Of a stretch of 64,000 nt of DNA, positions 8,105 through 45,155 are shown piece by piece (positions within the stretch are counted from its first letter, which is position 1; the number at the start of each line of letters is the position of its first letter). Source of the stretch: Nostoc sp. UHCC 0702 (GTDB taxonomy: Bacteria > Cyanobacteriota > Cyanobacteriia > Cyanobacteriales > Nostocaceae). The stretch is from assembly GCA_017164015.1 (NCBI GenBank), contig CP071065.1, forward strand, positions 1,491,409-1,555,408, given 5' to 3'. The notes under the pieces are model-generated. The model was not told the origin of the DNA and did no database searches. It saw only the letters and a program-made list of their open reading frames with translations. The position numbers and the translations under genes were made by a program.

Positions 8105-8151
8105 GAGTTGTAAGTTGAAGTATTAGGCTCAAAGACTGATTTATCTCCCTC

Positions 8152-8393
8152 AAAGACTCATGCGCGAATATCAAAGATTCGTGCGCGAATATCAAAGATT
8201 CGTGCGCGAATATCAAAGATTCGTGCGTGAATATCAAAGATTCGTGCGCGAATATCAAAGATTCGTGCGCGAATATCAAAGATTCGTGCGTGAATATCAA
8301 AGACTCATGCGCGAATATCAAAGACTCATGCGCGAATATCAAAGATTCGTGCATGAATATCAAAGATTCGTGCGCGGATATCAAAGACTCGTT
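8152..8393. repeat. 21-bp tandem repeat, about 11.5 copies
   Basis: The unit GAATATCAAAGATTCGTGCG (+C) repeats about 11 times with few changes (ATTCG to ACTCA, GCGC to GCGT or GCAT). Because 21 is a multiple of three and the unit lacks stops, it reads open in several frames (REYQRFV and NIKDSCA on plus, HESLIFA on minus). No ribosome site or recognisable protein supports coding. Changes between copies alter amino acids in the main frame, so I treat it as non-coding. Confidence 0.9.
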
Positions 8394-11143: not shown

Positions 11144-14100
11144 TTATTTTTCAATTACTACCAAATTCCACAGCGCATCAATCCCACTGCTTACATATTC
11201 TGAATCTTGGTGTTGTGAAATCCATTCGGCGACAGCAGCAGTAATATTGCTGGAGTTTTTGCCCAACTTGCCCAATGCCTCAGCAGCAGAGTTACGTGCA
11301 TTACTGTAACTCTCATTTTTGAGTAAAGCCAGGAGTGCTTCAACTACCTGCGGCGACGCGTTGCCCAACTTGCCTAATGCCTTAGCAGCAGAGTCACGCA
11401 CATGACTGTCACTCTCATCTTTGAGTAAACCCAGCACTGCTTCAACTACCTGCGGCGAGGCATTGCCCAACTTGCCCAATGCCTCAGCAGCAGAGTAACG
11501 CACTCCGTAACTCTCATCTTTGAGTGAAGCCAGCACTGCTTCAACTACCTGCGGCGAGGCGTTGCCCAACTTGCCTAATGCCTCAGCAGCAGAGTTACGC
11601 ACTCTGTAACTCTCATCTTTGAGTGAAGCCAGCAGTGCTTCAACTACCTGCGGCGAGGCGTTGCCCAACTTGCCTAATGCCTTAGCAGCAGAGTCACGCA
11701 CTCTGTAACTCTCATTTTTGAGTAAAGCCAGCAGTGCTGCAACTACCTGCGGCAAGGCGTTGCCCAAGTTGCCCAATTCCCAAGCAGCAGAGTAACGCAC
11801 AATCTCACTCTCATCTTTGAGTGAAGCCAGCAGTGCTTCAATTACCTGCGGCGAGGCGTTGCCCAACTTGCCCAATGCCTCAACAGCAGAGTCACGCACT
11901 CTGTAACTCTCATTTTTGAGTAAAACTAGCAGTGCTTCAACTACCTGGGGCGAGGCCTTGCCCAACTTGCCTAATGCCCAAGCAGCAGAGTTACGCACAA
12001 TCAGACTCTCATCTTTGAGTAAAGCCAGCAGTGCTTCAACTACCTGCGGCGAGGCGTTGCCCAACTTGCCCAATGCCCAAACAGCAGAGTAACGCACAAT
12101 CTCACTCTCATCTTTGAGTAAAGCCAGCAGTTCTCGCAATGCTTCCTCTTCTTCACCTAAAGCCGCCAGATATTCTAGCAGTCGGGTTTTATTTATCAAA
12201 TCTGCTGATGCTTTCAACAATTGTAATGCTTGAGCTTGAAATTTGGTTTCATTTAAATTGCAAAGAATTTGAAAAACCTGTGATTTAACTTTGTCACCTA
12301 CTCGTTGTTTATCGCTAACTTCAAGCTTAACTAATCGCTGCAAAATATCTGTAATCAATTTGCTATCAGATAATTCTAAATCTTCAGCTAAACAAGTACC
12401 CGCAAATAAAAGATTACGGTGCAGCCATTCTTCATAAGGAGTCTCTTGTTGCAGAATTGCTTCAATCACTTTTTTCGGGTTGCTACGTTTTTGTTGAGCT
12501 ATTAACAACAGCAACACCTCTCGCCAGTGAGAATTGTGTAAATAGTCTCCAATATGATTTAGTACTTCATTAAAGTCTTCTTCTTGGCGATCGCGTATTT
12601 CTTGAGCAGTCAAATATTCTTGAAATGTCTTATGCACAAAGCCATATCTATCTTGACCTTGTTCGTTTAATAAACCACAGCGTTCTGTAATATGCTCAAC
12701 TAAGCGTTTTGCTTCAGCTTGAGCTTGATGTTTCTCAACCTGATATTTTAATTCACGAATATATTTGCTTAATTGCATAATTAACTCATCTCTATCAATC
12801 AGTGTACCACCTTCTTGATTACCAGCTTCCCCTTGAGAATGAATCCAGTAAGCCAGGCGTTGCATCAATGTTTTAATATCATCCAATTGAATATAATTGA
12901 ACTTCCTAGACTCAATGTCTTTGCTTGCATCCCAGTTAATCAATAGCGTATCTACTGCCTGTTCATAGAGTTTATATCGCTGTCTAGGCAAATGTGCATC
13001 ATAGCGATGAATTAAAGCAATGATTGTTAGTAATAAAGGATTACGTGCTAACAACTTGATGCGTTCTTGTGTTGCTAATGCTTTTTTTAAGCTTTCTTGA
13101 CGCTCTTTTGCTTCCTCTGGCTTGTTTGGCAATCTGCTGTTGTACCACTGCTGAATAAATAAATCAATTTGACTGTCATCAAATTTTTCTAGCTGGTAAT
13201 GAGGAAATTCATCAGTACCAAAAAACTCTCGGCTATAACCTGCTGGACGCGAAGTTATAATGACCCTATTTTGAGAATATTGTCCTATAAAGCTGTGAAT
13301 TATCTTTACGAATTCAGAGCGATCGCTTGGTTTAGCAATCTCATCTAAACCATCAAGTAAAATTAACGCTTTGCCATCTTCTAGCCAATGTTCAAAAAAA
13401 CCTTTAGGCAATTCTTTCACATGAATACTATTTGCAAAATTGCGTATATATTCTAAAATATTCTTCTTGGAAGCTTTGCCTAAATCTCTAATTTTAATCA
13501 AAATAGGCAACAAATCTAAATCTGCTGATAAACCAAGTTTTTCAGCCTGCTGTTCAGCCAGCATCACAGCAAAATAACTCATCAAAGTTGTTTTACCAAT
13601 TCCTGGTTCACCCAAGACAACAAACTTATTACGTGAACTTTCTTTCAGCAATTCTTGGGCTGAAAATCTCTTGCCACTACTTTGTTGTTCCCAAAATAGA
13701 TTTTGCTGCTGGCGTTCCTGATTGGCTGTCTCTTCTAAAGCCAAATCTCGATTTAATTTTAAACGAATGCTTTCGCTAACTTCCACCTGTTCAGCCACAT
13801 TAGGCATCACAAAAATTTGTGGTAATTTAACAAATTTTTCTTCTTCTTTAGTTTTTACCTTCAAGCCTACATATTCAACACCATCAAAATAGCGTGACAG
13901 TTGTTTGAGATAATCTGTTTTAGCTATTTTGAATTTCAAATATGTATTTGTATGTTCAAAATAAGCATCTACAAACTTTTTCAGCCAATGTTCAATACTC
14001 TCATTGGGAAACCTTAACTTTGGCTTTTCTGATTTGATTTTCTGGAATATTTGAATTAAAATTTCTAAATTAGGGTTTGTTTTCTCTGTAAAAGGCTTCT

Positions 14101-27233: not shown

Positions 27234-27271
27234 TAGGTATTTGCCAATTGATTTTAGACATCTTCAGTAGT

Positions 27272-27840
27272 GAGGCTAATAGTCAAACTCAGCTAAAGCT
27301 GAATGCAATTGTTGTTTAGTCATCTTCAAGATGACTTTTGCTATTAGCCATAGGTTTCTAACCTATGGCGGGTAATCAGATGAAGGGCGAGATTCCAAAT
27401 TTAATTGCCGAATCTTAGCTTTTGTGACAAGTCCCGCCTCAGAATTAATTCTGAGGCTAATAGCTAAACTCAGCTAAAGCTGAATGTAATTGTTGTTTAG
27501 TCATCTTGAAGATGACTTTTGCTATTAGCCATAGGTTTCTAACCTATGGCGGGTAATCGGTTGAGGCGCGAGATTCTAAATTTAATTGCCGAATCTTGGC
27601 TTTTGTGACAAGTCCCGCCTCAGAATTAATTCTGAGGCTAATAGCTAAACTCAGCTAAAGCTGAATGTAATTGTTGTTTAGTCATCTTCAAGATGACTTT
27701 TGCTATTAGCCATAGGTTTCTAACCTATGGCGGGTAATCGGTAGAGGCGCGAGATTCTAAATTTAATTGCCGAATCTTGGCTTTTGTGACAAGTCCCGCC
27801 TCAGAATGAATTCTGAGGCTAATAGCTAAAGTCAGCTTTA
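27272..27840. repeat. 181-bp tandem repeat, three copies plus a partial one, each with several hairpins
   Basis: The phrase GAGGCTAATAG recurs at 27272, 27453, 27634 and 27815, exactly 181 bp apart. Each unit contains a 22-bp perfect palindrome at the junction (27436-27457 in copy 1/2), AGTCATCT-loop-AGATGACT, CCATAGGTT-TCT-AACCTATGG, TCAGCT-AA-AGCTGA, and a long-range pair GGCTAATAGC with GCTATTAGCC enclosing two of them. Such a branched structure is unusual. It ends 26 bp from the stop of a Y1 transposase gene, so it may be that enzyme's substrate. Confidence 0.92.
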
Positions 27841-27865
27841 GCTGACTCTAATGAACTAAGTCTTA

Positions 27866-28306
27866 TTAGTTTATATGAGTGGTTTTTGGTGCATCATCTT
27901 CGTGATTATAACTTTCCAAAGATGCGATTGTTGTTCCATTTAAATGATGCACTTTTTGATTTTTTACATACATAACAGCTTGTTCAAGTTGTTTGCTTCC
28001 TAGAGAAAAAACACCATATCCGCGTTGCCAGCCAAATAAATCTTGTGAAGGCGAGAGATGATTCAGATAATGAGTGCTACTGCCTTTAATATTTTGCACA
28101 AAATCAGAGATAGAAAGTTTAGGTGGAATAGAAGCAACTAAATGAATGTGGTTGTCTGTGCCACCGATTGCATGGATAATACAACCAAGTGCATCAGCTT
28201 TGCCAATGATATAATTGTAAAGCTGGCTTTCACGTTCGGATATAATTAGTGGCTGACGTTCTTTTGTAGCCCAGATAAGATGATAATAAAGTCGCCACAA
28301 AGCCAT
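27866..28306 (-). CDS. IS200-like Y1 (HUH) transposase, possibly RAYT-type
   Basis: This 146-residue single-domain transposase nicks and rejoins single-stranded hairpin DNA. The metal-binding HUH motif is DNHIHLV (about 51-57) and the catalytic Tyr is in VMYVKNQKVHH (about 112). No tnpB follows it. A domesticated relative of IS200 (RAYT) typically lies beside palindromic repeats that it spreads, and here the 181-bp structured array begins 26 bp past the stop codon. The start MALWRLYYHLIWATK is normal for the family. Activity is likely from the intact motifs. The assignment as RAYT rather than plain IS200 is inferred from the repeats. Confidence 0.85.
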   Translation of the reverse strand: MALWRLYYHLIWATKERQPLIISERESQLYNYIIGKADALGCIIHAIGGTDNHIHLVASIPPKLSISDFVQNIKGSSTHYLNHLSPSQDLFGWQRGYGVFSLGSKQLEQAVMYVKNQKVHHLNGTTIASLESYNHEDDAPKTTHIN

Positions 28307-28428
28307 TAAAGTAACTTCTGTTAGGGATTGCTTGCTTTTAGTATTCCCAAAATTGCTAGAAATATTAAAATTGACTTGAGCTTAGTTGCTGTACAAATAA
28401 TTGAGTAAAACATGTTGGATTTTTGAAT

Positions 28429-28665
28429 ATGCTAGGATTAAAAGATTTGCTGAGACAAGAAATCGAACATCTGAATGAAGAACAAGTAAAACAAGTTAGT
28501 GATTTTATTGCTTTTTTGAAATTTCGTCATCAAACAATGCGCTGGCAAATAGATAAAAGTCAGATAGCTTCTCTCTACAGTGAATTTGCTGAAGAAGACT
28601 GTCAACTAGCCGAAGAAGGTTTAGATGAATATACAGAACTCTTAAGCCAAGAAGATTTCAAATGA
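28429..28665 (+). CDS. Antitoxin of a MazF-type module
   Basis: This small protein (78 residues from the ATG at 28429; a TTG at 28423 would add two) has a helical N-terminus (LKDLLRQEIEHLNEEQVKQV) and an acidic C-terminus. It overlaps the toxin gene by four bases (ATGA), as in toxin-antitoxin pairs where the upstream gene is the antitoxin. It resembles the DUF2281-like antitoxins common in cyanobacteria. It would bind and silence the toxin and may repress the pair. Confidence 0.75.
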   Translation: MLGLKDLLRQEIEHLNEEQVKQVSDFIAFLKFRHQTMRWQIDKSQIASLYSEFAEEDCQLAEEGLDEYTELLSQEDFK

Positions 28666-29009
28666 AACTTGAGAGAGGGGAGATTTGGTTAGCAGATTTA
28701 AACCCAACCAAAGGTTCTGAACAAGGAGGTACTCGACCTGTAATTATTTTTCAGAATGAAGTTGTTTCGCAATTTTCTACAACTGTCATTACTATTCCCT
28801 TAACTACTAATTTGCGCCGTGCTTCCTTGCCGACATGTCTCTTAATTCCGGCTAACGAAGGGGGGTTAGAACGAGATTCAGTAGCTTTATGTTATCAATT
28901 ACGAGTGATTGATCAATCAAGATTGCAGAGAAAGCTGGGAAAATTGAGTCTAGAAATCATGACAATTTTAGAGGGTAAGGTATTATTGACATTGGGATAT
29001 CAGTTTTAA
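28662..29009 (+). CDS. mazF: MazF/PemK-family endoribonuclease toxin
   Basis: This 115-residue toxin cleaves RNA at short sequences when not bound by its antitoxin. Family motifs are LERGEIWLADLNPTKGSEQG at the start, TRPVIIFQNE, and TTVITIPLTTNLRR. The Arg and Thr of the active site (RGEIW and PLTT) are present. Length is typical. Translation is coupled to the antitoxin gene by a four-base overlap. The pair could stabilise this mobile-element-rich stretch. Confidence 0.9.
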   Translation: MKLERGEIWLADLNPTKGSEQGGTRPVIIFQNEVVSQFSTTVITIPLTTNLRRASLPTCLLIPANEGGLERDSVALCYQLRVIDQSRLQRKLGKLSLEIMTILEGKVLLTLGYQF

Positions 29010-40295: not shown

Positions 40296-43200
40296 TTACC
40301 GCCACTGTTTACACACTTCCTGAATAGCATGGACAGTTGCAGCTAAAGCTTCAGTACTACCCAATGGAATAATAGCATCACTCAACTTAGGAACATCTTG
40401 CAATAGTTCGTAACGATTGCGGTGGGACAAATTGTGGAGAATTTCACACCATAAATAAAATTTGATAGAGGCAAGGTTGAGTACTGATAATAAACTACTG
40501 AAAACATCAGCACGATTTGAGTCAGATTGAATATCACGGGTTATATTGAGGGCTTGCTGTACCTGTTGCGGTGACAGGTATGGCGCTAATCCACTTAGAG
40601 CTTTGGCGCGGCTTGAGTCAGATTGAATATCACGGGTTATATTGAGAGCTTGCTGTAGCTGTTGCGGTGACAGATGGGGTGCTAGCCCTCTCAGATCATA
40701 GGCACGGCTTGAGTCATCTTTAATACCGCCTACTATACTGAGAGTTTCCTGTAGCTGTTGCGGTGACAGGTATGGTGCTAGTCCACTTAGAGTAGAAGCA
40801 CGGTAATCGTCATCTTGAATACCACGAGCTATATCGAGGGCTTGCTGTAACTGTTGCGGTGACAAGTATGGTGCTAGTTCTTTCAGTCCATAGGCACGAA
40901 AATACTCAGTAATATTAATTAGACCATTTAGAGTATTTTGTAGCAATTCTTGCGATAGGTGAGGTGCTAGTCGACTCAGGGCTTTGGCACGGGAATCGTC
41001 ATCTCGAATACCACGGGCTATGTCGAGGGCTTGCTGTAGTAGTTCCTGTGACAGGTGAGGTGCTAGTCCACTTAGAGTAGAGGCACGGCTTGAGTCAGAT
41101 TGAATATTACGGGTTATATTGAGGGCTTGCTGTAGTAGTTCCTGTGACAGGTGAGGTGCTAGTCCACTTAGAGTAGAGGCACGGTAATCGTCATCTCGAA
41201 TACCACGGGTTATATTGAGGGCTTGCTGTAGTAGTTCCTGTGGCAGGTGTGGCGCTAGTCCACTTAAAGATTTGGCGCGGCTTAAGTCATTTTTAATACC
41301 ACTAGCTATATTAAGGGCTTGCTGTAGCTGTTGCGGTGACAGGTGAGGTGCTAGTTTACTTAAGTATTTAGCACAGCTTAAGTCATATTTAATACTATTG
41401 ACTATATTAAGGGCTTGCTGTAGCTGTTGCGGTGACAGGTGAGGTGCTAGTTTACTTAAGTATTTAGCGCAGATTGAGTCATATTTAATACCGTCTATTA
41501 TATCGAGGGCTTGCTGTAGCTGTTGCGATGACAGGTGAGGTGCTAGTCCACTTAGAGTAGAGGCACGGTAATCGTCATCTCGAATACCACGGGTTATATC
41601 GAGGGCTTGCTGTAGCTGTTGCGATGACAGGTGAGGTGCTAGTCCACTTAGAGTAGAGGCACGGTAATCGTCATCTCGAATACCACGGGTTATATCGAGG
41701 GCTTGCTGTAGCTGTTGCGATGACAGGTATGGAGCTAGTTCATTCAGGGCTTTGGCGCGGCTTGAGTTATCTTGAATACCACGGGCTAATTCAAGGGCTT
41801 GCTGTAACATCTCCTGTGGCAGGTGTATCGCTAGTTCACTCAGAGCAGAGGTACGGTTTGAGCCAGATTGAAGACCACTGGTTATATCGAGGGCTTGCTG
41901 TAACTGTTGCGATGACAGGTGTGGCGCTAGTCGATTGAGAGCTTTGGCGCGGTAAGAGTCAGATTGAAGACCACTGGTTATATCGAGGGCTTGCTGTAGC
42001 AGTTCCTGTGGCAGGTGTGGCGCTAGTTCATTCAGGGCTTTGGCGCAGCTTGAGTTATCTTTAATATCACGGGTTATATCGAGGGCTTGCTGTAGCAGTT
42101 CCTGTGGCAGGTGTGGCGCTAGCCCACTCAGAGCTTTGGCACGGATTGAGTCAGATTCAATCCCACAGATGGCATCAAGGGCTTGCTGTAGCAGTTCCTG
42201 TGGCAGGTGTGGCGCTAGCCCACTCAGAGCTTTGGCACGGATTGAGTCAGATTCAATCCCACAGATGGCTTTGAAGACTTCTTGTAGTACCTGCGGTGGT
42301 AGGCGTGGCGCTAGTCCACTCATGGCTATGGCGTGGTCTGACTCATATTGAAGATCACGGGCTATATCGAAGGCTTGCTCTACCAGTGATGGAGGCAGGT
42401 GAGGAGCTAGTCCACTCAGAGCTTTGGCGCGGTAAGAGTCAGATTGAATACCACGGACGGCATCAAGGGCTTGCTGTAGCAGTGACGAAGGCAGGCGTGG
42501 AGCTAGTTCATTTAGGACTTCGGCACGGATTGAGTCACATTGAATACTACGGGCGGCATCAAGGGCTTGCTGTAACAGTTCCTGTGATAGGTGTGGAGCT
42601 AGTTCATTTAGGACTTCGGCACGGATTGAGTCAGATTGAATACCACGGGCGGCATCAAGGGCTTGCTGTAGCAGTTCCTGTGACAGGTGTGGTGCTAGTT
42701 CATTCAGGGCTTTGGCACGGATTGAGTCAGATTCAATCCCACAGATGGCTTTGAAGACTTCTTGTAGTACCTGCGGTGGTAGGCGTGGCGCTAGTCCACT
42801 CATGGCTATGGCGTGGTCTGACTCATATTGAAGATCACGGGCTATATCGAAGGCTTGCTCTACCAGTGATGGAGGCAGGTGAGGAGCTAGTCCACTCAGA
42901 GCTTTGGCGCGGTAAGAGTCAGATTGAATACCACGGACGGCATCAAGGGCTTGCTGTAGCAGTGACGAAGGCAGGTATGGCGCTAGTTTACTCAGAGCAA
43001 AGGCGCGGTAAGAGTCAGATTCAATCCCACAGATGGCATCAAGGGCTTGCTGTAACAGTTCCTGTGGCAGGTATGGCGCTAATTTACTCAGAGCAAAGGC
43101 GCGGTAAGAGTCAGATTCAATCCTACAGATGGCATCAAGGGCTTGCTGTAGCAGTTCCTGTGGCAGGTATGGCGCTAATTTACTCAGAGCAAAGGCGCGG

Positions 43201-45155
43201 TAAGAGTCAGATTCAATCCCACAGATGGCATCAAGGGCTTGCTGTAGCAGTTCCTGTGGCAGGTATGGTGCTAGTCCCATAAGAGCAAAGGCGCGGTAAG
43301 AGTCAGATTGAAGACCATAGGCTATATCGAGAGCAACAGGAAGTAGAGATTCTGGTAAGTAAGGAGCTAATTTTCCTATAGCTGTTGCTCGCTTCTCAGA
43401 TTCTTTCGCTTGTTGGACATAAGCTAATCCCTGTGCAGGTGTCCACGAATTATTCTTTACTAGTGCTGCCAACAGGGAGGCGGGGATATTTTTTGCCAAA
43501 CTATTCAGAGAAGTTGTAATCAGAGCATAGCGGCACTGTAATGCAATTGACTGTGACGAGTTTTTCTCAAACATCTCCTCTGCCAATTGCCAAGCACGGG
43601 TAACATCAGTTACAAAATTCGCAGTTTGTCCCAAGCGTTCACATGCCTCATACCAGCCATTGCCTCCCGTTTTTGAATCTTCCTGCAACAACTGGTGGAT
43701 CTCTTCTACTTGCTCAGCTTTTTCTAAATGCCAGACTAGACGTTGATGGATGTAACCGTCATTTGGCAAGGTATGCCATAAACGATTTTGGGTTTTTTCG
43801 CGGTATTTCTCTAAGAAAGTAGCGTGAGCATGAGTAAGGGTCATACCTAACCCTGGTAAATCACCTTCATGCTTTGGCGTTGGTGAAGCAGTTAACAAAT
43901 TGCGTGCTAGATCATAGAAAAGGTCATGCAAACGATAAGTTTTTGTTCCGTCAACTAAAGGCACACCAGCTAATAGCAGTGCTTTACTCCGCAGATATTC
44001 TAGCGTATCAGAAGCATCACGCTCGTTCTCCATACTCCAAAGTGTTGCTGTCATTTTAGGAGTAATAGTTACATCTTCAGGTAAGATACCCAGCCAAGTA
44101 AAATTTTGTTTTTCCTTTTCTGACAATCGCTGTATACTCAAATTCAATGATGCAGTTAAGCTAAAGCTTTTTAAAATTGCTTCATCATTTTTAATGTCTC
44201 TAGTTGATGGGTTATCAAATGTTTTTAAGCGAGCAATTTCTCGTTGAATATCTTGCAAAAAAACTGCCCACGAAGTACCGTCTAAAACATGTGCTGCTGC
44301 TAGTTCTAATGCTAAGGGAAGATAGCCAACCGCTTTTGCTAGGGCTTCAGCCTCCTGGCTTTCTGTGTCAGTGAGGTTACGTCCTAGTTTATTGGTCAGC
44401 AGTTTCATCGCCTGTTCTGGGTTCATGACATCCAGAGAATATGTTTTGGCTCGAAACACTTTAGCGATCGCCTCGTCGCGAGTTGTTACCAGAAATTGAC
44501 AACCTGCTCCACCAACCTTAAATGCTTTTGCATCTTTTTGATCCCAAGCATCGTCTACTACTAACAAAACTGCTTTGTCACAGAGCAAATTATGCAGATG
44601 ATTGGAGCTAGCTTCTATACTGGTGGCTTGAAAGCTATAGTCTCCCAGTTTTTGTATCCAGCCGCTCAACAAAGAGAGAACATCGGGGTCTTGACCTAAA
44701 GTTGCCCAAAGGATACCGTCACTAAAGCGAGCTTGTACCTCTTTATCAGATGCTAAAGCTATTGCTAGCGTAGATTTCCCTACAGAAGCTAAGCCATGAA
44801 TGGCAGTAACTACTAAAGTATGCACATCTGATGACTCTGTAAGCAAACGTTTTTTTAAGTCTTGACTGTATTCTGGGCGTTCTACATAGTAAGTTGGTAT
44901 GGGTGGTACTTTGAATGATACTTGGAAAGGTTTGCCTACTTGCTGTGCAGTACCAAAATTAACTGTATTTGCTATTATGTTGTGCGTTCCTTGAATCACT
45001 TGACTCTGTTCGTGGGCAGTTGCTTCAAGGTTGATGACATCACTTCTAATTTTAATACTTAGGTCATCACCAGAGTAAATCTTGTTATCAGTTGCTTGAC
45101 CACCTAATGCTATACTCCGCTCACCTTCAGCGATGACATTTTCTTCCTCTGGCAT
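40296..45155 (-). CDS. NB-ARC STAND NTPase with about 30 helical repeats
   Basis: This 1619-residue protein is the likely receptor of the island. Residues 1-90 hold a Gly/Asn-rich motif (G11 to D30, with RSIALGGQATDN) that also ends the small helical protein at 45521. NB-ARC follows: Walker A GLASVGKST (121-129), Walker B VLLVVDDAWD (196-205), TTRD (224-227) and GYLPLALE (277-284). A winged-helix and linker region reaches about 588. Then come about 30 units of 32 residues (core LAPHLPQELLQQALD), a superhelix suited to ligand sensing. Proteins of this plan oligomerise on ligand binding and pass the signal through the N-terminal motif. There is no enzymatic effector domain, so it must act through a partner. 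Repeat units are young. Defence is inferred. Confidence 0.92.
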   Translation of the reverse strand: MPEEENVIAEGERSIALGGQATDNKIYSGDDLSIKIRSDVINLEATAHEQSQVIQGTHNIIANTVNFGTAQQVGKPFQVSFKVPPIPTYYVERPEYSQDLKKRLLTESSDVHTLVVTAIHGLASVGKSTLAIALASDKEVQARFSDGILWATLGQDPDVLSLLSGWIQKLGDYSFQATSIEASSNHLHNLLCDKAVLLVVDDAWDQKDAKAFKVGGAGCQFLVTTRDEAIAKVFRAKTYSLDVMNPEQAMKLLTNKLGRNLTDTESQEAEALAKAVGYLPLALELAAAHVLDGTSWAVFLQDIQREIARLKTFDNPSTRDIKNDEAILKSFSLTASLNLSIQRLSEKEKQNFTWLGILPEDVTITPKMTATLWSMENERDASDTLEYLRSKALLLAGVPLVDGTKTYRLHDLFYDLARNLLTASPTPKHEGDLPGLGMTLTHAHATFLEKYREKTQNRLWHTLPNDGYIHQRLVWHLEKAEQVEEIHQLLQEDSKTGGNGWYEACERLGQTANFVTDVTRAWQLAEEMFEKNSSQSIALQCRYALITTSLNSLAKNIPASLLAALVKNNSWTPAQGLAYVQQAKESEKRATAIGKLAPYLPESLLPVALDIAYGLQSDSYRAFALMGLAPYLPQELLQQALDAICGIESDSYRAFALSKLAPYLPQELLQQALDAICRIESDSYRAFALSKLAPYLPQELLQQALDAICGIESDSYRAFALSKLAPYLPSSLLQQALDAVRGIQSDSYRAKALSGLAPHLPPSLVEQAFDIARDLQYESDHAIAMSGLAPRLPPQVLQEVFKAICGIESDSIRAKALNELAPHLSQELLQQALDAARGIQSDSIRAEVLNELAPHLSQELLQQALDAARSIQCDSIRAEVLNELAPRLPSSLLQQALDAVRGIQSDSYRAKALSGLAPHLPPSLVEQAFDIARDLQYESDHAIAMSGLAPRLPPQVLQEVFKAICGIESDSIRAKALSGLAPHLPQELLQQALDAICGIESDSIRAKALSGLAPHLPQELLQQALDITRDIKDNSSCAKALNELAPHLPQELLQQALDITSGLQSDSYRAKALNRLAPHLSSQQLQQALDITSGLQSGSNRTSALSELAIHLPQEMLQQALELARGIQDNSSRAKALNELAPYLSSQQLQQALDITRGIRDDDYRASTLSGLAPHLSSQQLQQALDITRGIRDDDYRASTLSGLAPHLSSQQLQQALDIIDGIKYDSICAKYLSKLAPHLSPQQLQQALNIVNSIKYDLSCAKYLSKLAPHLSPQQLQQALNIASGIKNDLSRAKSLSGLAPHLPQELLQQALNITRGIRDDDYRASTLSGLAPHLSQELLQQALNITRNIQSDSSRASTLSGLAPHLSQELLQQALDIARGIRDDDSRAKALSRLAPHLSQELLQNTLNGLINITEYFRAYGLKELAPYLSPQQLQQALDIARGIQDDDYRASTLSGLAPYLSPQQLQETLSIVGGIKDDSSRAYDLRGLAPHLSPQQLQQALNITRDIQSDSSRAKALSGLAPYLSPQQVQQALNITRDIQSDSNRADVFSSLLSVLNLASIKFYLWCEILHNLSHRNRYELLQDVPKLSDAIIPLGSTEALAATVHAIQEVCKQWR
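40496..43390. repeat. 96-bp tandem repeat array inside the STAND gene
   Basis: About 30 units of 96 bp. A block of about 266 bp at 42230-42495 is identical to 42710-42975, exactly 480 bp (five units) later, which shows a recent duplication or conversion. The opposite strand reads open for long stretches because of the repeat; I do not consider those coding. Confidence 0.9.

Follow-up and report, generated by a model that had tools for sequence, protein, structure and literature searches.

Is a tandem array of hairpins that ends beside a Y1 transposase gene that enzyme's own repeat? The question is raised by a locus in the window, the stretch of 64,000 nucleotides of Nostoc sp. UHCC 0702 DNA that we analysed, which sits in a single-contig genome of 8.59 Mb (G000). 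The 181-bp multi-hairpin array of three full units that the original prediction had described there proved to be real. Tandem Repeats Finder reported a period of 181 and 3.2 copies at 27271-27852 (95% matches, score 1045), and pairwise comparison of the three full units gave 10, 3 and 11 differences over 181 positions. Folded as single-stranded DNA, the region 27432-27650 reached -50.9 kcal/mol, against -20.7 (sd 3.3) for shuffled sequences; since this corresponds to a z of -9.2 and 0 of 200 shuffles folded as well, chance is excluded for the folding of the array. The announced neighbour is a Y1/HUH transposase gene indeed: the product of 27866-28306 matches Y1_Tnp (PF01797, E 1.4e-27). Some details needed correction. 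Of the 22-bp palindromes said to be perfect at each junction, those at 27436-27457 and 27617-27638 are indeed so, whereas a 2-nt loop interrupts the one at 27798-27819, and the distance from the array to the stop of the gene, given as 26 bp, is 13 bp (array end 27852, stop codon 27866-27868). Elsewhere in the window, further large tandem repeats occupy 8150-8392 (21 bp x 11.6), 11259-12131 (99 bp x 8.8) and 40510-43331 (96 bp x 29.4), and many 7-bp repeats are found across it as well.

Each 181-bp unit contains two inverted double-hairpin (DH) modules of 50-52 bp. One inverted pair in the array measures 115 bp (for example 27436-27550, with a spacer of 13 bp); the remaining 66 bp of the unit are a linker. 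By eye only, the ends of this linker (GCGCGAGATT / AATCTTGGC) resemble worn ends of TIR1, one of the terminal inverted repeats (TIRs) described below. Modules were detected with two models, R1 for clade I (35 rows) and R2 for clade II (10 rows). Within the 64-kb window no R2 module was present, and an Rfam search of the window matched no family. The parts of the locus are as follows.

27271..27852, no strand: tandem array, 181-bp unit, 3.2 copies (Tandem Repeats Finder)
27243..27304, minus strand: truncated module at the far end of the array (R1 32.4 bits)
27318..27369, plus strand: DH module (R1 51.7 bits)
27436..27485, minus strand: DH module (R1 68.8 bits), inverted pair with 27499-27550 across a 13-bp spacer
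27499..27550, plus strand: DH module (R1 51.5 bits), paired with 27436-27485
27551..27616, no strand: 66-bp linker between inverted pairs (coordinates from the R1 module positions)
27617..27666, minus strand: DH module (R1 68.8 bits), inverted pair with 27680-27731 across a 13-bp spacer
27680..27731, plus strand: DH module (R1 51.7 bits), paired with 27617-27666
27798..27847, minus strand: DH module closest to tnpA, hp1 facing the gene (R1 73.5 bits)
27866..28306, minus strand: Y1/HUH transposase gene (tnpA), assigned by its motifs (HIH, WQ, YVKNQKVHH) to TnpAY1 subclass 1.2, clade I, 146 aa

Comparison of the array with its dispersed relatives in the same genome yielded a module consensus of nearly fixed length. 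A clade I DH comprises, in this order, hp1 AGTCNNCTnnAGNNGACT (18), the linker TTnGCTATTA (10) and hp2 GCCNNNGAATnnATTCNNNGGC (22), usually followed by GG, and a clade II DH comprises hp1 AACCCGCgcagGCGGGTT, the linker TCGTCTGTGTAGCC and hp2 GCGATTtctAATCGC. Many of the dispersed elements in G000 are two inverted DHs with the order hp2-hp1-spacer-hp1-hp2. At its 5' foot, hp2 carries TAG in 33 of the 35 modules of clade I and in all 10 of clade II; in clade I the foot usually reads TTAG and not GT[AG]G, and in clade II it reads GTAG in 8 of 10 cases. Shortly before this TAG, the linker contains CT (33 of 35 clade I and 6 of 10 clade II modules). The pairing of the DH was maintained through compensatory change: among the 35 clade I modules, 12 of 18 pairs were altered on both sides with 97.8% of the cells paired, and sliding the partners by one column lowered pairing to 39-52%. 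All cells (100%) were paired in the 10 clade II modules. G-U pairs were nearly absent (4 of 630 cells in clade I, 2 of 130 in clade II), which points to selection acting on DNA. The measure 'further pair types' was no better than in shuffles in either module alignment (35 clade I, 10 clade II), nor was 'pairs changed on both sides' for A2, the clade II alignment.

We then turn to the enzyme, whose 146 residues include NHIH, then WQ, and YVKNQKVHH. In the accessible part of Quentin et al. 2018 (PMC6006769), TnpAY1 subclass 1.2 is characterised by Y---Q--HH and also has the HUH consensus DH[IV]H followed by WQ and a length of about 148 aa, and class 2 (RAYT) is characterised by Y---NP; Table 1 of that article records REP as 'no' for subclass 1.2. 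Judged by Y---Q--HH, HUH and WQ, size and tree position, the enzyme of the window is a TnpAY1 of subclass 1.2. Y, NQ and HH were invariant among 11 aligned relatives. In the tree, 30 subclass-1.2 rows fell together on one side of a branch with moderate support (83/71), and nine rows of subclass 1.1 (84/43) and three of class 2, the latter on long branches, stood apart from them. A profile of the 11 relatives matched eight distinct chains in the PDB, including TnpA of ISHp608, with E-values from 4e-15 to 1.5e-12; the core of the enzyme is intact and related to ISHp608 TnpA. Nostoc and other cyanobacteria provided the nearest named records encoding the protein among the best 80 of 551 relatives. 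The identity as a RAYT is ruled out by the Y motif, YVKNQKVHH instead of Y---NP. A multi-copy insertion sequence of the IS200/IS605 type (subclass 1.1) is likewise ruled out, as the next best tnpA match in the genome (626129-626512) is only 38% identical. This match is a second subclass-1.2 gene, flanked by tandem copies of the clade II DH. Thus, the original prediction of a RAYT-type palindromic-repeat system stands as regards a Y1 gene beside a dispersed palindromic repeat in inverted pairs, but not as regards the class of the enzyme. Instead of a one-hairpin REP, the unit comprises two DH modules in inverted orientation, and clusters of such modules recur beside other subclass-1.2 genes.

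To what extent do the modules accompany such genes? Loci in G000 and its relatives were searched with R1 and R2 at E-values up to 1e-4; they comprised a first set of 28, some of which had fed model building, and 11 gene copies added later. DH modules of the matching kind adjoined 38 of the 39 subclass-1.2 gene loci, with R1 matches at 26 of 27 clade I loci and R2 matches at 12 of 12 clade II loci. The sole clade I miss was an 80-residue gene fragment (L276 in G003). Cross matches were found at 0 of 12 clade II loci for R1 and at 1 of 27 clade I loci for R2 (L094, 34.5 bits). Among loci outside model building, matches were found at 15 of 16 in clade I and at 5 of 5 in clade II. As controls served 33 other Y1 loci that all lack Y---Q--HH (25 with Y---Q without HH, 8 with YIEDPHH): none had an R1 match and one had an R2 match, about 1 kb from the gene (L060). 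Three class 2 loci were matched by neither model. Within the first set, a module was located at most 250 bp from the gene in 28 of 28 loci, and at least four modules were located within about 1.5 kb in 15 of 28. At several loci, a module follows the stop codon by 13-22 bp. In clade II, hp1 of the nearest module faced the gene in 13 of 14 cases; in clade I the picture was mixed, with 15 of 28 (L084, L094 and L097 left out). Beside many subclass-1.2 genes, tnpA occupies the position of the spacer of a DH pair.

Similar flanks were observed in other phyla. A protein-profile search of genome contigs provided the best 80 of 551 relatives, of which 72 were used and 8 dropped (motif pattern not located or flanks short). 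We looked for two perfect hairpins 6-26 nt apart at most 250 bp from the gene, with the region at 1.0-1.25 kb as the far control. Such sets were present near 39 of 72 loci versus 3 of 72 at the far distance, before which some contigs end. For the 52 non-cyanobacterial subclass-1.2 loci, the figures were 27 near and 3 far (discordant pairs 25 versus 1, p 8e-7), leaving 25 of 52 without a two-hairpin set; the background was 0.9% in two-base-word shuffles and 0 of 33 at other Y1 loci. Near the gene, 39 of these 52 loci have one or more hairpins with stems of at least 8 (versus 2 of 52 far). Examples of two-hairpin flanks come from Chloroflexota, Acidobacteriota, Bacteroidota and Ignavibacteriota. 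Since the paired-hairpin design also flanks related transposases in several phyla, the repeats may be the DNA on which the enzyme acts. Dispersal outside the cyanobacteria was examined in two genomes only. The flanking DH of a Blastocatellia genome (G060) was matched 26 times; 23 of these matches lie elsewhere than at the gene, and four sets form inverted pairs. In Salinimicrobium, the flanking repeat is not dispersed, with one further match 0.8 kb away.

In Nostoc sp. UHCC 0702 itself, units and hairpins do occur elsewhere, as the original prediction had implied: we found 34 BLAST matches at 32 places outside the array, and 84 model matches among 100 candidates scored in the genome. Inverted DH pairs are scattered through G000 and its relatives. 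Whether repeat number follows the transposase was a further check suggested at the outset, and across 60 genomes, with about 100 candidates scored per genome so that high counts are lower bounds, it did so in part. The median number of R1 modules was 83 in the 21 genomes with a clade I tnpA (two with fragments only) versus 7 in the 39 without (p 2.3e-6, kinship ignored), and for R2 it was 87.5 in 12 genomes with a clade II gene versus 3.5 in 48 without (p 4.7e-5, kinship ignored). Within one family, the corresponding values were p 4.6e-5 (R1) and 2.6e-4 (R2). However, G007, G036, G034 and G058 carry 91-100 R1 matches (about 100 scored) without a clade I gene. Confinement to genomes with the transposase held only in part: of the 21 genomes with a clade I gene, 20 contained at least 10 R1 modules, but so did 17 of the 39 without. 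The cross-tests (R1 in clade-II-only genomes, p 0.027; R2 in clade-I-only genomes, p 0.11) are weaker than the flank test. That is, DH copy number tracks the enzyme, albeit imperfectly.

Many of the dispersed DH pairs are located within longer inverted repeats, or shells, of at least three unrelated kinds: TIR1 (TATCTTGCA...), TIR2 (CATTGGTGTCAACTTAA) and TIR3 (CAGGGCTATTTC...). Among the loci examined, 10 of 11 TIR2 pairs measured 205-206 bp and 6 of 11 had at least 8 of 9 bp duplicated. A 3-bp duplication was seen in 4 of 14 TIR1 rows (one locus counted twice) and a 10-bp duplication, by eye, in one of three TIR3 elements. In the whole of G000 no TIR2 shell was free of a core, all 7 pairs of 205-206 bp containing one. 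In G007, one of the genomes rich in modules without a clade I gene, 3 of 5 loci examined sit in TIR shells. Because shells can spread the core without the enzyme, they may explain part of the modules in genomes that lack the clade I gene, and in genomes such as G007 they may sustain the core. The TIR2 elements at L016, L018, L023, L024 and L029 are inserted in palindromic targets such as GGGGCGTACAGCTGTACGCCCC, and palindromes are therefore nested within palindromes.

When the joined flanks of 10 G000 elements were compared with the sister genome G001, three sites were empty (L022, L011, L029) and two occupied (L014, L026), with no call for the other five (L015, L017, L018, L019, L023). At L022, 173 bp were missing without a visible duplication; at L011 (TIR1), TCAA stood at both sides; and at L029 (TIR2), the flanks overlapped by 10 bp. 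The shell was absent together with the core in all three empty sites, and none of them recorded movement of a bare DH pair (10 elements tried). The recent dispersal of these copies is thus best ascribed to transposition of the shell. Because core and shell are absent together, we infer rather than observe that the Y1 enzyme itself moves the repeat, and the case for its putative role is built on the evidence from flanks, clades and other phyla.

This raises the possibility that the dispersed elements are DDE-type MITEs with hairpins inside, that the Y1 enzyme had no part in their spread and that the modules beside tnpA are landing sites or relics. The shells speak for it: unrelated kinds surround the cores, TIR2 has a constant length and duplications and TIR1 a duplication in some rows, every TIR2 pair of that length in G000 has its core, and the empty sites of G001 lack both. 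We nevertheless regard this account as unlikely. It leaves unexplained why modules matched to the clade stand at 38 of 39 subclass-1.2 loci and beside no other Y1 genes, why similar flanks exist in other phyla, and why one core recurs in three unrelated shells. An RNA-level role, in which the hairpins would terminate transcription or be kept beside genes as conserved RNA elements, appears highly improbable: the short distance of modules from the stop codon at several loci would fit, but the scarcity of G-U pairs favours DNA, modules are also dispersed, inverted and located upstream of genes, and the window matched no Rfam family.

For the growth of the array, the balance is closer. Ordinary slippage or unequal recombination between palindromic repeats could have multiplied the 181-bp unit without any transposase, for which we see a real chance, if somewhat short of an even one. 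The units are alike at all but 3 to 11 of 181 positions, and where G000 contains seven modules, its sister genome G001 contains two at the corresponding place. Against this stands the recurrence of clusters beside the genes, with at least four modules at 15 of the 28 first loci, in different genomes and with different units. Such growth could hold alongside the explanation that we prefer, namely that the array is made up of clustered copies of the repeat cognate to the transposase beside it, within a REP/BIME-like system of subclass 1.2 with two hairpins per module. Given the anatomy, the compensatory upkeep, the dispersal, the clade-matched presence beside subclass-1.2 genes and the similar flanks in other phyla that we observed, we assign this explanation a probability of roughly 0.6. 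Several observations weigh against it: no bare DH pair was seen to move at the empty sites, four genomes rich in R1 modules have no clade I gene, the copy-number comparison ignores kinship, a clade I gene fragment is without a module, 25 of 52 non-cyanobacterial loci lack a two-hairpin set, the Salinimicrobium repeat is not dispersed, and module orientation beside clade I genes is mixed.

In this cognate-repeat explanation, the basic module is the double hairpin, hp1, linker and hp2 with TAG at its 5' foot, and two inverted DHs form a BIME/REPIN-like element, hp2-hp1-spacer-hp1-hp2. TnpA is predicted to bind the DH as single-stranded DNA and, by analogy with REP, to cut near the TAG foot, with the CT of the linker as a possible site. 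In REP systems, as described in the accessible part of PMC8266576, GTAG contributes to recognition, and cleavage at CT is consistent with pairing between CT and this motif. TnpA would copy or move DH pairs; extra units beside the gene might arise by rejoining through TnpA or by ordinary recombination; and many dispersed pairs would have spread further as the core of other MITEs. More tentatively, and at odds that we would place a little under even, the subclass-1.2 Y1 enzymes might represent a third, cross-phylum single-strand hairpin recombinase, next to IS200/IS605 and REP/RAYT, that recognises two consecutive hairpins per end and whose non-autonomous DH pairs repeatedly became the cores of unrelated DDE-type MITEs. 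If so, two unrelated transposition chemistries would serve to spread a single repeat.

The system resembles REP/BIME (REPIN) sequences and their TnpAREP (RAYT, class 2) in several respects: a Y1 gene of low copy number is flanked by its own dispersed palindromic repeat, the repeats form inverted pairs and tandem clusters, and the DH has TAG at the 5' foot of hp2 where REPs carry GTAG. The present system differs in having Y---Q--HH and not Y---NP, two hairpins per module, and, in clade I, TTAG in place of GT[AG]G (most clade II modules do have GTAG). With the IS200/IS605 elements of subclass 1.1 (ISHp608, ISDra2) it shares a related catalytic domain, but the gene is without near-identical copies in its genome, and the perfect double hairpins of its flanks were absent at the 33 other Y1 loci. 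Subclass 1.2 as published agrees in Y---Q--HH, WQ, HIH, size, low copy number and occurrence in Cyanobacteria and Bacteroidetes; it differs in the entry 'no' for REP in the accessible part of PMC6006769, versus a cognate repeat here, and in the further phyla in which we found members. A search of the open literature, with subscription papers mostly outside it, returned no description of the DH repeat or of any subclass-1.2 repeat.

Nezha is a MITE of filamentous cyanobacteria, and small dispersed repeats of Nostoc were reportedly the subject of Elhai 2008. GTAG-12, -15 and -16, as far as the accessible part of PMC3733652 presents them, resemble our elements and Nezha in being palindromic repeats or MITEs of filamentous cyanobacteria, and the many GTAG-15 dimers that A. 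variabilis carries inside long palindromes (PMC3733652) resemble DH pairs inside TIR shells. The clade II repeats may overlap the GTAG families of that article.

What is new is a REP/BIME-like repeat whose modules have two hairpins each and which is linked with an enzyme branch listed as lacking REP. It illustrates in what form a REP-like system can occur outside the RAYT branch. Neither a substrate nor a repeat was given for subclass 1.2 in the accessible part of PMC6006769, the single classification describing it that we found, and the clade-specific DH is a testable candidate substrate. Two enzyme clades and two repeat families, sometimes in one genome, also offer a natural comparison for the choice of hairpins by Y1 enzymes. 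In addition, an abundant repeat family of filamentous cyanobacteria is hereby described, of which we found no earlier account in the open literature.

The neighbourhoods of the genes deserve a last remark. At 7 of 8 clade II loci, the gene adjoins dndC, dndD or both, which belong to DNA phosphorothioation operons (L070, L096, L098, L100, L101, L102 and L103, with L099 as the exception and L097 left out), and at L096 and L098, where both neighbours were confirmed, tnpA sits between dndC and dndD. Type I restriction-modification genes adjoin 2 of 5 clade I loci (L085, hsdR/hsdM-like; L095, hsdR/hsdS-like). Defence operons may possibly be favoured by subclass-1.2 genes. In the window, the other strand just upstream of tnpA (28423-29009) carries a small gene and then a PemK/MazF-like toxin gene (PF02452, E 7.5e-28).
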